This document shows, in pieces, positions 48,219-61,697 of a stretch of DNA of 64,000 nucleotides (position 1 is its first letter; every line of letters begins with the position of its first letter). Source of the stretch: Gallionellaceae bacterium (GTDB lineage Bacteria > Pseudomonadota > Gammaproteobacteria > Burkholderiales > Gallionellaceae); the NCBI GenBank assembly GCA_019753125.1, contig JAIELH010000003.1:1-64000 (forward strand), given 5' to 3'. The position numbers were made by a program, and so were the translations under genes. Below the pieces are notes generated by a model, which made no database searches, had not been told where the DNA came from, and saw only the letters and a list, made by a program, of their open reading frames with translations.

Positions 48219-48809
48219 TTAAGCTGCCTCAAGCAGCTTGCCAAACAATGCCTCGTGCGTTTGCTCGCCGATATCGAAATTCAGAGCGACTGCAATTTCC
48301 ACGCCGATGCGCATGGGCGATCCATAACGAGTAACGGCGAAGCCGGCGCGACGCATCATGCGTTCGATTGATGCCGTTGTTACCGTAACGTAGTGCTCAA
48401 TTCCCATTGAATCCCCAAATTTGACGATTTCCCGCAAAGCGTCCAGCGATATTCCCGAGAAGCCGAATCCTTGCGGGCCATCGGCTTCGATGGCAAATCG
48501 GCTTAATTCCCATATTTTCGGATCTTCCGGTGCCAAGTGGCCATACAGCAATTCCGGGAATGTGTCTTTCAGCATGTAAGGTCCTTTCGTTGGCAATGCT
48601 CGCCAGCAACCACGCAGTCTTGTCGAAGAGTCACGAATCATCATGTAATAGGGGTCGAGAGCATCGTACCCGTCGATTTCCATGCCGCTCATGATGGGAA
48701 CTTCCCAGCCCATTCGTTCCTTGAACACTTTGGCGCGCAGCCGGTGCATTTCCCACAATTCCCTGCTATCGAATTCTTTGCGCGATGCGATTTTGATCAA
48801 ATGTGGCAT
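48219..48809 (-). CDS. luxI: LuxI-family acyl-homoserine-lactone synthase
   Basis: 196 aa. The invariant residues are in place: Arg and Phe in LRAKVFKERMGW, Trp in MGW, both Asp in MEIDGYDALD, Arg in GCWRALPT, and Glu/Arg in WELSRFAIE. It should make an acyl-homoserine lactone from SAM and an acyl donor. GGAAGGATG precedes the ATG. A lux box lies 76 bp upstream, with a CATAAA -10 hexamer 20 bp beyond it, so autoinduction is likely. It is separated from luxR by 413 bp. Confidence 0.93.
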   Translation of the reverse strand: MPHLIKIASRKEFDSRELWEMHRLRAKVFKERMGWEVPIMSGMEIDGYDALDPYYMMIRDSSTRLRGCWRALPTKGPYMLKDTFPELLYGHLAPEDPKIWELSRFAIEADGPQGFGFSGISLDALREIVKFGDSMGIEHYVTVTTASIERMMRRAGFAVTRYGSPMRIGVEIAVALNFDIGEQTHEALFGKLLEAA

Positions 48810-49222
48810 GTTTACATCCTTCCGTTCGTGTTGGCTGGATAACCCAGGACGGATAGGAATTTATGCGTATTGCATAATTTTCATAGCTAGCTAATTTGAT
48901 AGCTGGAGAGGCTTAAACCTTTGCCGCAGAATTAAGGGCCAGAGTCGCGACTTGCGGGGAGATATACAGTGAATTCAATACGACAATGTGATGCCAGGAA
49001 CGAACTTCATCCGGAAGTCCTGCGTCAACATCGAAAAAATCGCCGGGAAAGCCAGTTTTGTTTCTGGACGCGCTTCGGGGTAACCCAGTCACGCGGAAGC
49101 CGCTTCGAAATGGGGGCGGAAATTCCGCCCCCCGTAGCAATATTATTGAAGCTTTATTTGAGTGGTGTTATTACAGACAGTGACTTGTAGAGAATTGGGC
49201 AGTACGTCGCTGGCTCGGTGGA
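48810..49222. other. luxI-luxR gap
   Basis: 413 bp between luxI and luxR, both on the minus strand. It holds the luxI promoter with its lux box (48885-48904) and a strong hairpin (GGGGGCGGA / TCCGCCCCC, 49112-49132) without a T-run, perhaps a transcript end for luxR. Short frames at 48913-49140 and 48969-49190 lack ribosome sites and known motifs. Confidence 0.5.
48885..48904 (-). promoter_or_regulatory. lux box of luxI
   Basis: Minus-strand AGCTATCAAATTAGCTAGCT, an imperfect palindrome that matches the module boxes (ACCTATCTGAGTTGCTAGGT) at 14 of 20 positions. A -10-like CATAAA starts 20 bp downstream, the same spacing as in the modules. Confidence 0.7.
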
Positions 49223-49954
49223 TTATTCAGGGCTGATAAATTCCAGCCGGATCGCCTTGACCACAGCCTGGCGTCGCGAGGATGTGCTGAACTTGCGACG
49301 TATATTCCCGAAATGGAAATTTACCGCAGCCTCGGAGCAGCCCAATATCTGCGAGATATCCCAGGAGCTCTTGCCGGTTGCACACCATTTAAGGCATTCG
49401 ATTTCCCGCCGGGTAAGCACGACGACTTTCTCTGTGGGGGCCGCGGATTTCATGAATTGAAGCGAGGTTTCGAAGATAAAATCCCGGAAGCATGATAGAT
49501 CAGGAATGTTGCGGTTCGCTTCTTCATGAAATTGCTTGTTCGGGTTTGTGTCGGACACAAAACAAAGTACACCAAACTCCCTATTCGGGCCATGGATCGG
49601 CAATGTGACGCCGGAGCGAATGCCGTACCCGCAGGCCTCCTCGTACATTTCATTTTGCCTGCGCCCGGCAAACAGGTTTGGCGACCAGATCAACGGGGTG
49701 GTTTTGGTGAAGCAATGTGTGACGGTCGGGTCGACGTGCCCCAGCTTTTCGTCATCGTACTTGCTGCGCCATTTCGGGGAATAGTTGCTGTGCAGGAAAG
49801 CAAACTCGGCTTCGACGGGGGCGTTGCGATCCGGAAAAATCGCAAGTAGCGTACGTTCGTAGCCTAGCTCGTTGCCTAGTTTGAAGACGTGATCGCGCCA
49901 ACTTTCTATCGTGGTATGAAGGGTAAGTTCTGCAAACTGTTCAATAGACTTCAC
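49223..49954 (-). CDS. luxR: LuxR-family quorum-sensing regulator
   Basis: 243 aa from the GTG at 49954, which has GGGAG nine bases upstream and gives the normal length of LuxR proteins; an ATG far upstream would add 53 unrelated residues. The signal-binding domain has the invariant Trp, Tyr, Asp-Pro and Trp (YSPKWRSKY, HVDPTV, PLIWS) and Gly in IRSGVTLPIHG. The DNA-binding domain reads LTRREIECLKWCATGKSSWD, then INFHFGNIRRK-like sequence. Probable receptor for the LuxI product and activator of the lux-box promoters. Divergent from module A. Confidence 0.93.
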   Translation of the reverse strand: MKSIEQFAELTLHTTIESWRDHVFKLGNELGYERTLLAIFPDRNAPVEAEFAFLHSNYSPKWRSKYDDEKLGHVDPTVTHCFTKTTPLIWSPNLFAGRRQNEMYEEACGYGIRSGVTLPIHGPNREFGVLCFVSDTNPNKQFHEEANRNIPDLSCFRDFIFETSLQFMKSAAPTEKVVVLTRREIECLKWCATGKSSWDISQILGCSEAAVNFHFGNIRRKFSTSSRRQAVVKAIRLEFISPE

Positions 49955-50142
49955 TCGAGTTATCTCCCTGATGCTCGTTGTGATCGGAATTTCAGGCTTT
50001 AGCCATCTTGTTTCCTTCGTCCTCTGTCCAAACTGCGCCTTCTGTTTAATCCAAGGGCGCTTATATTTTTCGCATGATAGTCCAAATGACACAGACTTTA
50101 AAGCGTGCATCATCCTACATGCTTATTTATCCGTGCTTGCCA

Positions 50143-50333
50143 ACCTATCTGAGTTGCTAGGTCACGCCGTATAGGAAAAACGATAGATTCGCCCTCGACG
50201 CCAGTCTTCTCTCCGAATTTGCCCGGCACGGCGAGCAGGTTTGCAAACCGCCATGCGGCGAGCGAACGGGGGCTGAGTTGTTCGGCGGTGTCGAATTTGT
50301 CCGGGTAAAAATCGAGTACATCAGGAGAGATAT
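50143..50333 (+). promoter_or_regulatory. Module A lux-box promoter and conserved leader
   Basis: Box ACCTATCTGAGTTGCTAGGT at 50143-50162; a -10-like GATAGA begins 20 bp after it (50182), the class II lux spacing. The following leader of about 140 nt is nearly identical in modules B and C and recognisable in D. It can close CCCGG (50222) with CCGGG (50301) and ACCGCC (50247) with GGCGGT (50284). AGGAGAG precedes the gene start. Confidence 0.8.
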
Positions 50334-60208: not shown

Positions 60209-60234
60209 CATTTCCTGTCAGCCAAGTAACAGCG

Positions 60235-60774
60235 CTAAGCCTGAGTGGAAAGCTTTAGCGCCTCTGCCGAAAGGGTGACTTGGTCTGTGCTGGTGATAGC
60301 GTTGGTGGTTGCGCCGACATGGATGCCGTTTTTCTTGAGGTTCTTCAGCATTTCATCGAGCATCATCTCGATCAGCGTCTTGGCTTTTTCGGATTTCTTT
60401 CCGGGGTTGGCTTTCTCGTCGGCTATCATGGCTTTGGCGCCCGCAAGCAGAGCTAGCGCCCCTTCCTTTGTTCCTTTGTATCTTGCACCATTTTGTTCTT
60501 CAGGCGACATCTGGTTCATGTAGTTCACGTATGCTTCAGCAAGTTTCGCAACTCCTTGCGGGGTGGCATCCCCAGCTAAATGGCCAAATGCCGCATACTC
60601 TCGCGCATTCAATTTATTAGTTGCATCGGCGATTTGTTTATCCGTATATTTCCCAAAGTTTTTGTTGTGGGGATCGCAGCTATCGGAGATTTCTGACAAA
60701 TTCTCAAGATATCTGGAGCCATTGCTGGGAACCAGTGCGCTTGTTAGTTGTGCGGTATTGATGCCATTTACCAT
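60235..60774 (-). CDS. Module D second protein, unknown function
   Basis: 179 aa, no signal peptide, Lys/Ala/Asn-rich and mostly helical (GALALLAGAKAMIADEKANP, then LIEMMLDEMLKNLKKNG). It ends with DQVTLSAEALKLSTQ, the V.LS..A motif, here at the C-terminus. AGGAG precedes the ATG by nine bases. Convergent with the ABC permease, 26 bp apart. Probably the partner of the module D gene, 295 bp upstream, a gap in which I see no other gene. Confidence 0.72.
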   Translation of the reverse strand: MVNGINTAQLTSALVPSNGSRYLENLSEISDSCDPHNKNFGKYTDKQIADATNKLNAREYAAFGHLAGDATPQGVAKLAEAYVNYMNQMSPEEQNGARYKGTKEGALALLAGAKAMIADEKANPGKKSEKAKTLIEMMLDEMLKNLKKNGIHVGATTNAITSTDQVTLSAEALKLSTQA

Positions 60775-61069
60775 GAATACAGTCTCCTGTGGTTTTGTTG
60801 CTTACAGCGCCAACGGCGCTACGCCTGATTGAAAGTTTTTCGCGCATCTTTCGCAATGATTGTCTGATCTGACACTGCTCGGCGTTAGCGGATATATCGG
60901 CATGGTTTGGTTTTTTTTGAGGTTTCTCATCATTTATTTCGAACATCAACACGCGAAAAAAATGGGTTGCCCAGACTTCTTTCCTCAGCGGGATATCTCT
61001 TTGCACACCATGCTTTGCAACTTGCTGAAACTGCGTCCACCAGGTTTGGCGAACGCGGCTTTGTCGTTT

Positions 61070-61501
61070 TTACTGTATTTTAAACGTGACCGCTAATGAA
61101 CAATTTGCAGGATTTGACGATGCAGACGTGATAGTTGCTGTACATGTGGCATAAGTGCCGCCTGTTGATTTTGCAGCAACGGGATAGAGGCAGGGCGAGG
61201 TAGGTGTGGATTGATTAAACGATGCAGCATCAAAATGACATTTCTTGCCGGCAGTATTGCTATAGTCGATATGAAAAGAGGTTACGTTTCCGAGGCCGGT
61301 ATTGATATAGGTTTGACTCAGGGATGCACTAATCGGTGCTGGCGCAGGGAACACTGTACCCGCATAGCTCGCACTGCTCGGTGATACCGTGGTGGTCGTG
61401 TTATTTTCGGCTGTGATGGTTATTTGAGTAGGAGCAGCAAATGCTGCGCCACTTACGAGAAGCAGCAATGTGGCGGGAAGAGCAATTTTAATCGATTTCA
61501 T
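61070..61501 (-). CDS. Module D secreted protein, family 2
   Basis: 143 aa. Signal peptide cleaved after SGAAFA (residue 22). Mature part Thr/Ser-rich and beta-like, with four Cys (KKCHF, SPCLYP, YATCTAT, ANCSLA) and a final strand AVTFKIQ. Homologous to the module B protein. AGGAGT precedes the ATG. It is the only module facing left and ends the island beside rep. Confidence 0.75.
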   Translation of the reverse strand: MKSIKIALPATLLLLVSGAAFAAPTQITITAENNTTTTVSPSSASYAGTVFPAPAPISASLSQTYINTGLGNVTSFHIDYSNTAGKKCHFDAASFNQSTPTSPCLYPVAAKSTGGTYATCTATITSASSNPANCSLAVTFKIQ

Positions 61502-61697
61502 TTTTGACTCCTAATTTAAAAGTTTTACCCGGCCAGGCGAAACACCGCTGTCACTTCACAGCCCCGTTTACTTGCCATCTTCGTTACAGCGGCTTACAAA
61601 CATCCTCACCGCACCGGGCGAATTTCGGAGAGTAAGAAGTGTTGGCTATGACCATATCACGCGCTAATAGCCTTGCAGCCTATCAACTCTGATAGGT
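61502..61697 (-). promoter_or_regulatory. Module D lux-box promoter and diverged leader
   Basis: Minus-strand box ACCTATCAGAGTTGATAGGC (61697-61678), the most symmetric of the four, then GATATG at the same 20-bp spacing. The leader is clearly related to A-C but diverged: CTCTCCGAA, GTTTGTAAGCCGC and AACGGGGCTG are kept. GCCGCT pairs with AGCGGT where A has ACCGCC with GGCGGT, a change on both sides of the stem. Confidence 0.78.

Follow-up and report, generated by a model that had tools for sequence, protein, structure and literature searches.

The DNA considered here is a 64,000-nucleotide stretch of contig JAIELH010000003.1 from a Gallionellaceae bacterium, hereafter the window, in which one locus is, judged by its sequence, an inserted island. 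The island carries four modules, each pairing a small protein with a Sec-type N-terminus (S1 to S4) with a signal-less partner (X1 to X4), together with a MacAB-TolC-type pump and the genes of a quorum-sensing circuit. The explanation that we modestly favor is that the LuxI/LuxR/RsaL-like circuit would switch on the four S/X pairs, and that the MacB-type pump would eject S. S and X are found together with this pump clade in further Beta- and Gammaproteobacteria, the set being frequently plasmid-borne. We also propose, more tentatively, that it could constitute a mobile two-step protein secretion system of Proteobacteria, in which Sec-exported S is ejected by a dedicated MacB-type pump clade and is accompanied by a cognate, mosaic X with an N-terminal tag; this would give FlhE-domain proteins a non-flagellar job, and would in the present genome place an S/X arsenal under a single quorum-sensing promoter.

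Every element listed in the initial annotation, namely luxI and luxR, four modules and a pump block, was indeed found in the window. The minus-strand luxI and luxR come first, modules 1-3 and the pump follow, and module 4 stands last, on the strand opposite to that of the other modules. The pump block has the make-up of a MacAB-TolC-type system, i.e., a permease with a MacB periplasmic core and FtsX-type domain, an ATP-binding cassette (ABC) ATPase, a HlyD-type adaptor and TolC, and domain matches were obtained for all four genes (Table 1). It is to be noted that the ATPase and the permease are two separate open reading frames (ORFs), not fused as in E. coli MacB; such a split is described for other MacB-family members in PMC5985334. 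According to the same source, MacB uses ATP to drive work on the periplasmic side, and the Sec-delivered enterotoxin STII is expelled by MacB acting together with MacA and TolC. The likeness to the STII pathway thus lies in the four pump components and in a small disulphide-type Sec protein as the likely substrate, whereas the differences lie in the split ATPase and permease, in the location of the genes beside S/X pairs, and in a permease clade that is far from ordinary MacB. Permease matches at 1e-40 occurred in 221 of 330 genomes of the order, but the clade stood out in just two, the source genome (G000; 622 bits) and a genome of another family (G291; 549 bits), the next best scoring 258 bits. 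Both of these genomes also have S and X, and the S2/S4 profile matched only these two among 399 genomes of the order, the overlap between the two genome samples not being stated.

Outside the source genome, loci were collected from S, X and permease searches, and 6-25 kb was examined in each. In these loci, too, each S type is mostly accompanied by its own X type: S1 was paired with X1 in 7/7 S/X-led loci, S3 with X3 in 3/3, and S2 with X2 in 2/2. Pump genes were present in nine of the 13 S/X-led loci that had both S and X (L034, L035, L050, L053, L055, L058, L060+L098, L068+L069 and L095); L047, an X locus at a contig edge, six Pantoea agglomerans X1 matches (H15-H20) and the permease record H36 were left outside the locus counts. 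An alignment scan for S3, with one genome per species, yielded three loci, of which L034 carries S3, X3, TolC, adaptor, ATPase and permease, L035 has the same order until its contig ends within TolC, and L036 has S3 and X3 only, plus an unrelated-looking ABC gene. Between the window and L034, identity was 77% for S3, 64% for X3 and 61% for TolC. The order in G291 is three X2 copies, S2, TolC, adaptor, ATPase, permease, S1 and three X1 copies, while plasmids of Citrobacter, two Pantoea strains and Rahnella aquatilis carry S1, X1, ATPase, permease, TolC and adaptor, with an extra X2 on the R. aquatilis plasmid. The permease search of the plasmid collection returned 15 records, and in eight of the 14 that were examined an S was supported by profile (Citrobacter, two Rahnella, two Pantoea CFBP strains, Deefgea, Pantoea CFSAN047153, which has two S genes, and Methylosinus). 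Another five offered only an adjacent Sec-type ORF of 138-156 amino acids (aa) in place of a supported S; in a seven-sequence test, the S2/S4 profile scored these at 2.5e-5 (L064), 2.3e-3 (L065), 8.6e-3 (L063) and 2e-2 (L062), no S score below 1e-3 was obtained for the L062-L065 ORFs in the full profile run, and the L096 ORF is a 99% copy of that of L064. X was found by homology in six of the 14 records, was X-like by position and composition only in three, and was not seen in five. As a control, 20 ordinary MacB-type loci from the permease search of the order, one of them from the source genome, contained 0 S and 0 X. Since S/X modules and a MacAB-TolC-type pump stand together in unrelated genomes, their tie to a dedicated exporter, as the initial annotation had proposed, is more than coincidence.

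Several of these loci have features of their own. The plasmid of Enterobacter bugandensis has a 156-aa Sec-type ORF that lacks an annotation (L062:7748-8218) directly before the pump, the usual place of S, and no family match supports it. On pCFSAN047153_3 of Pantoea agglomerans (L061:7654-15078), the two FlhE-like S genes stand on either side of the pump, with a flagellar hook FlgE gene close by. Two Shewanella plasmids (L057:7572-11047 and L097) carry an S2/S4-like gene, two X2-like genes and an adjacent insertion sequence element but no pump, along with additional small genes with X-like N-termini. Neither S3 nor X3 was found in the plasmid collection, where S2 had one record; among viral contigs X2 was found in one (L052) and S2/S4 in none. 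X2 was confined to the source genome among 369 genomes of the class, and X3 matches were obtained in six of 399 genomes of the order, including the source; two of these six, with E values of 3.0e-4 and 4.8e-4, fall in long open frames (939 and 954 aa) and were dropped as likely chance. The S1-X1 DNA of Citrobacter was not found in E. coli genomes.

The four S proteins have the lengths (158, 150, 159 and 143 aa) and the Sec-type N-termini claimed in the initial annotation, the latter label resting on Kyte-Doolittle hydrophobicity, for which the best 12-residue mean was 2.0-2.4 in S1-S4 and only 0.2-0.9 in X1-X4; this also agrees with the claim that the second protein is signal-less. By sequence, S3 exceeds the curated Pfam cut-off for FlhE (36.1 versus 25 bits) and finds PDB 4qxl, but falls below the NCBI equivalog cut-off (42.7 versus 150 bits), and S1 aligns with S3 by profile, although the S1 profile itself had no sensible match in PDB. 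Unlike FlhE, S1 and S3 lie outside flhBA operons and are paired with X and the pump: the neighbors of S3 are X3 and the pump, not flhB/flhA, and the FlhA of the source genome is on another contig (C41). Among 150 relatives, FlhE-type S was seen in the source genome and in G097, where the strength of the match (1.2e-35) would suit a genuine FlhE. Passages of PMC11247099 (Halte et al.) propose FlhE as a periplasmic chaperone for the flagellar rod, consider the gene neighborhoods of FlhE-domain proteins, find these proteins in a dozen phyla, and call their role outside the flagellar operon unclear. In profile comparison of S2/S4 with S3, the alignment was limited to the signal region. The predicted model of S2 has the beta-sandwich fold of the aegerolysin/Cry34/actinoporin group, which makes S2 no more than a candidate for lipid binding or pore formation. 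This likens it to Cry34Ab1, RahU and AfIP-1A, and RahU is described in PMC7985367 as an aegerolysin under RhlR/acyl-homoserine lactone (AHL) control; some bacterial aegerolysin-like proteins, as stated in PMC9505663, act with a larger partner, a role that X could play by analogy. S2 differs from the group in its identity of about 10%, its N-terminal Sec-type signal, and a signal-less partner of no known family, and no match to curated aegerolysin or actinoporin families was found in Pfam (E up to 1) or NCBIfam (E up to 0.5).

The X proteins gave no convincing family in Pfam, NCBIfam, PHROG or PADLOC, and neither X nor S matched PADLOC at E 0.01. In the AlphaFold2 (AF2) model of X3, residues 1-48 have a predicted local distance difference test score (pLDDT) below 50 and the remainder is predicted to be helical; against PDB, this fold had a best Foldseek E of 1.0, which is of no use. 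X3 has 284 relatives in total, of which 120 were listed, and its C-terminal domain is doubled in three of the relatives that were inspected. Of 23 X or X-like proteins, 13 have a V-[TSKR]-[ILVF]-S-type motif within their first 60 residues (anywhere in 16/23; in X4 at the C-terminus), as do two of the 67 window ORFs, X genes included, but since it was derived from some of the same proteins, these counts are a description and not a test. An N-terminal likeness of X to FlgM is not claimed, as 25 X3 proteins had no Pfam match to FlgM, nor to any other export family. Tandem X copies are mosaic: in G291, X1 copies 1 and 3 have their last half in common, and two X2 copies their first quarter, while in pALTS33 (MN366361.1, L046:6410-8785) X2, X2 and X1 are fused in one 791-aa ORF. 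Three tandem X-like genes on plasmid pAB510c of Azospirillum sp. B510 (L063:3947-6381) have near-identical ends and diverged centers: the synonymous divergence (dS) is 0-0.06 for the C-terminal portion, against 1.0-1.5 for the center.

The genes of a predicted LuxI/LuxR/RsaL-like circuit are present in the island, i.e., an AHL synthase, an AHL-binding LuxR with a GerE domain, and an RsaL-like helix-turn-helix (HTH) protein. The domain matches bear out the luxI and luxR of the initial annotation, which had overlooked the rsaL-like gene between them; in four same-genus genomes a similar ORF was seen, by eye, at the corresponding place between the two genes. The promoter claimed for each module is also recognizable, as the lux-box pattern CCTATCNNNNNTGMTAGG occurs in exactly four places in the 2.47 Mb source genome, each before an S gene and 190-195 bp from its start in 4/4 modules, box 4 being palindromic and hence matched on both strands. 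When reversed, the pattern occurred 0 times in the source genome, once in G011 and twice in G055, five genomes being searched. The same-genus genome G054, with a LuxI 84% identical, has a CCTATCNNNNNTGMTAGG-type box 126 bp upstream of luxR, which fits the pattern as the site of this LuxR lineage. A second match in G054 (L072) precedes genes without a tie to the system, and was read as chance. Action of the circuit on the boxes is predicted from sequence. In the LasR-RsaL-LasI circuit, as here, luxR-, rsaL- and luxI-type genes are adjacent and the rsaL-like gene is on the opposite strand, but the pattern in the island stands only before the S modules, and before neither luxI nor the pump.

Behind the boxes, leaders 1-3 are 84-87% identical to one another, and leader 4 is 55-59% identical to them, whereas the S coding sequences that follow align with just 42-48% identity. 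This suggests that one promoter-leader was probably copied before unlike S/X pairs, and we take the leader as a common promoter and 5' leader, presumably spread by recombination. The shared leader of the initial annotation thus stands as a sequence, while no support was found for a conserved RNA structure: folding z-scores ranged from -1.7 to +0.3, there was one two-sided change in 28 pairs, and Rfam gave no match. Elsewhere, the best leader E was 0.69 among 32 other loci, and in 150 relatives it matched the source genome only. S2 and X2 are separated by a terminator-like hairpin. TolC starts 128 bp past X3 in the same orientation, and the gap contains no terminator-like site, so that read-through into the pump from module 3 is plausible, although such sites are no more numerous than in shuffled sequence.

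Quorum control as a general feature did not hold up. The search of related genomes for luxIR, cassette and pump together, suggested in the initial annotation, recovered the recurrence of S/X with the pump, but LuxI was found in the source genome and in 0/14 other cassette carriers, ten of which are covered as plasmid records only. What recurs is therefore the cassette with its pump, to which quorum control has been added locally. Moreover, the four same-genus genomes with 75-84% LuxI relatives had no S, X or pump within about 20 kb of luxI, so that the circuit is apparently native to the genus, with the cassette as the addition; the two may also have arrived together. That the quorum promoter was acquired locally and copied to the four modules is part of the explanation that we modestly favor.

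The borders are consistent with insertion beside rep, whose first 161 bp are repeated at the left edge, so that the island is bracketed by this repeat. The radical-SAM gene to the left of the island is directly upstream of rep in five of 14 relative loci, the distance being 0.1-0.35 kb in four of these and 1 kb in the fifth; the other nine have different genes there or too short a flank. The 14 loci contained no island sequence, except for 44 bp of the rep-proximal edge in L090. G+C content is 0.516 in the island versus 0.580 to its left, and no integrase was seen in the window ORF list. Just left of the rep fragment (window 47882-47948) is a perfect 27-nt inverted repeat with a 13-nt loop, possibly a repetitive extragenic palindromic (REP)-type element. 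The source genome comprises 97 contigs and is 88% complete.

Table 1. Positions of the island, its genes and its sequence elements in the 64,000-nucleotide window.
Feature	Position	Strand	Evidence or remark
Island	48,152-61,886		beside rep
Left-over rep 5' fragment, 161 bp, left island edge	47991..48151	+	152/161 identical to 61887-62047
luxI-type AHL synthase	48219..48809	-	PF00765 1.7e-33; 75-84% relatives in four same-genus genomes
rsaL-like HTH gene, 73 aa	48969..49190	+	PF22495 7.7e-22
luxR-type regulator	49223..50113	-	PF03472 1.4e-28, GerE 1.2e-19
Lux box 1	50144..50161	+	pattern search
Promoter/leader 1	50162..50333	+	sequence comparison
S1, Sec-type, FlhE-like by profile, 158 aa	50334..50810	+	profile vs S3 family prob 95, E 2.4e-8
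X1, 369 aa	50914..52023	+	relatives beside S1 elsewhere
Lux box 2	52194..52211	+	pattern search
Promoter/leader 2	52212..52386	+	sequence comparison
S2, Sec-type, predicted aegerolysin/Cry34-like fold, 150 aa, TTG start	52387..52839	+	
X2, 272 aa	53051..53869	+	relatives beside S2 in G291 and pALTS33
Lux box 3	53985..54002	+	pattern search
Promoter/leader 3	54003..54177	+	sequence comparison
S3, Sec-type, FlhE-like, 159 aa	54178..54657	+	PF06366 7e-9; PDB 4qxl 1e-7 by profile
X3, 186 aa	54732..55292	+	284 relatives; AF2 model
TolC-like outer membrane channel	55421..56881	+	PF02321 (OEP) 5.3e-38
Periplasmic adaptor, HlyD/MacA-like	56871..58292	+	PF16576 (HlyD_D23) 3.9e-13; TIGR01730 1e-30
ABC ATPase	58309..59004	+	PF00005 (ABC_tran) 5.7e-34
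MacB-type permease	58970..60208	+	PF12704 (MacB_PCD) 7.2e-25, PF02687 (FtsX) 3e-20
X4, 179 aa	60235..60774	-	42% relative beside Deefgea pump
S4, Sec-type, S2 homologue, 143 aa	61070..61501	-	BLASTP to S2 9e-5; S2/S4 family
Promoter/leader 4, diverged	61502..61678	-	sequence comparison
Lux box 4	61679..61696	-	pattern search
rep helicase gene, intact, right island edge	61887..63869	+	84-91% relatives in same-genus genomes; empty site

In the favored explanation, AHL-bound LuxR would activate the four module promoters at high density, and the pump would be transcribed through from module 3. Sec would carry S across the inner membrane, S would fold in the periplasm, and the pump is predicted to eject it as MacAB-TolC does with STII. 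Once outside, S2/S4, and possibly S1/S3, may attach to the membranes or surfaces of competing or predatory organisms, or have a role in the matrix. X would be dedicated to S as its partner, and would most likely be released along with it or serve in assembly, as suggested by its unstructured, tag-like N-terminus and by the recombination and fusion of X genes. We know of no recognised export signal in X, which is the main gap in the model. A number of other observations also weigh against it. Modules and pump do occur apart, which the initial annotation had named as contrary evidence, and which was found in part: S and X lacked a pump in four of the 13 loci (L036, L046, L057 and L097, the last being 6.4 kb and read by annotation), X was alone in six (L048, L049, L052, L054, L056 and L059; pump 0/6), and six of the 14 pump-led records (L062, L063, L064, L065, L067 and L096) had no supported S, the Legionella pump locus having nothing S-like at all, while L061 has two S genes and no X was seen there. 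Some copies are damaged, with one in-frame stop each in S1 and S2 of G291, a frame shift near the end of the pALTS33 S2, an S1 reduced to its C-terminal part in Rahnella aceris, and an incomplete R. aquatilis TolC whose match covers residues 40-229 only. A TolC like that of the window was found in 0/20 control loci, and an adaptor match was missing in 11/20, so that the controls are ordinary MacB-type ABC loci and not proven tripartite pumps; the S and X profiles were built partly from loci that they then find. The pattern search detected no lux box at luxI or at the pump. Lastly, Foldseek alone gave S2 a best E of 1.1e-3, and a fold does not show function.

Three other explanations were weighed against this one. 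The protein exported may be X, tagged by its unstructured N-terminus and taken out by the pump or by the flagellar apparatus, and S would then be a chaperone or adaptor that holds X in the periplasm, in the manner proposed for FlhE and the flagellar rod in PMC11247099. The FlhE-likeness of S1/S3, the multiplication and mosaicism of X and not of S, the presence of FlhA in both the source genome and G291, and the N-terminal motif of X would all suit this reading. Nonetheless, we regard it as unlikely: the pump tracks S more than X, as illustrated by the pump and S without X in L061 and by the pumpless loci of lone X, MacB takes periplasmic substrates according to PMC5985334, the X3 proteins lack a FlgM-like or other export family, and the motif count carries the circularity noted above. 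Somewhat less probable still is that S is a released antimicrobial or cytolytic toxin and X its cytoplasmic immunity protein, arrayed against the variants of rivals. The cognate pairing of S and X, tandem mosaic X arrays beside a single S, orphan X genes and the predicted membrane-binding fold of S2/S4 agree with such an arrangement, but a cytoplasmic protein would hardly protect against a membrane-acting S, X2-X2-X1 are fused in one ORF, the unstructured N-terminal stretch is kept in X, and S varies no more than the pump does in the comparison with L034.

It is also conceivable, though very improbable, that the substrate of the pump is a small molecule or drug, and that its company with S/X on mobile DNA is incidental. 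MacB relatives do export drugs and siderophores, as stated in PMC5985334, and several cassettes are on plasmids near transposases or recombinases; the association nonetheless holds over Beta- and Gammaproteobacteria and two gene orders, the 20 ordinary MacB loci are devoid of S and X, and no recurrent biosynthetic gene was present in the loci that were read.

In the open-access literature, judged by titles and the openings of abstracts and with subscription papers outside this scope, no description of an S/X-plus-pump cassette was found, and the set thus seems undescribed so far. The locus and its relatives give some FlhE-domain proteins a recurrent setting, consisting of a cognate partner and a dedicated exporter, and beside the FlhE-like S stands a second S family with a predicted Cry34/aegerolysin fold. 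They also provide a testable secretion hypothesis for Beta- and Gammaproteobacteria, partly on small plasmids. If it is true, natural protein substrates would be named for a clade of MacB-type pumps, and the S/X arsenal would join what bacteria release at high density.

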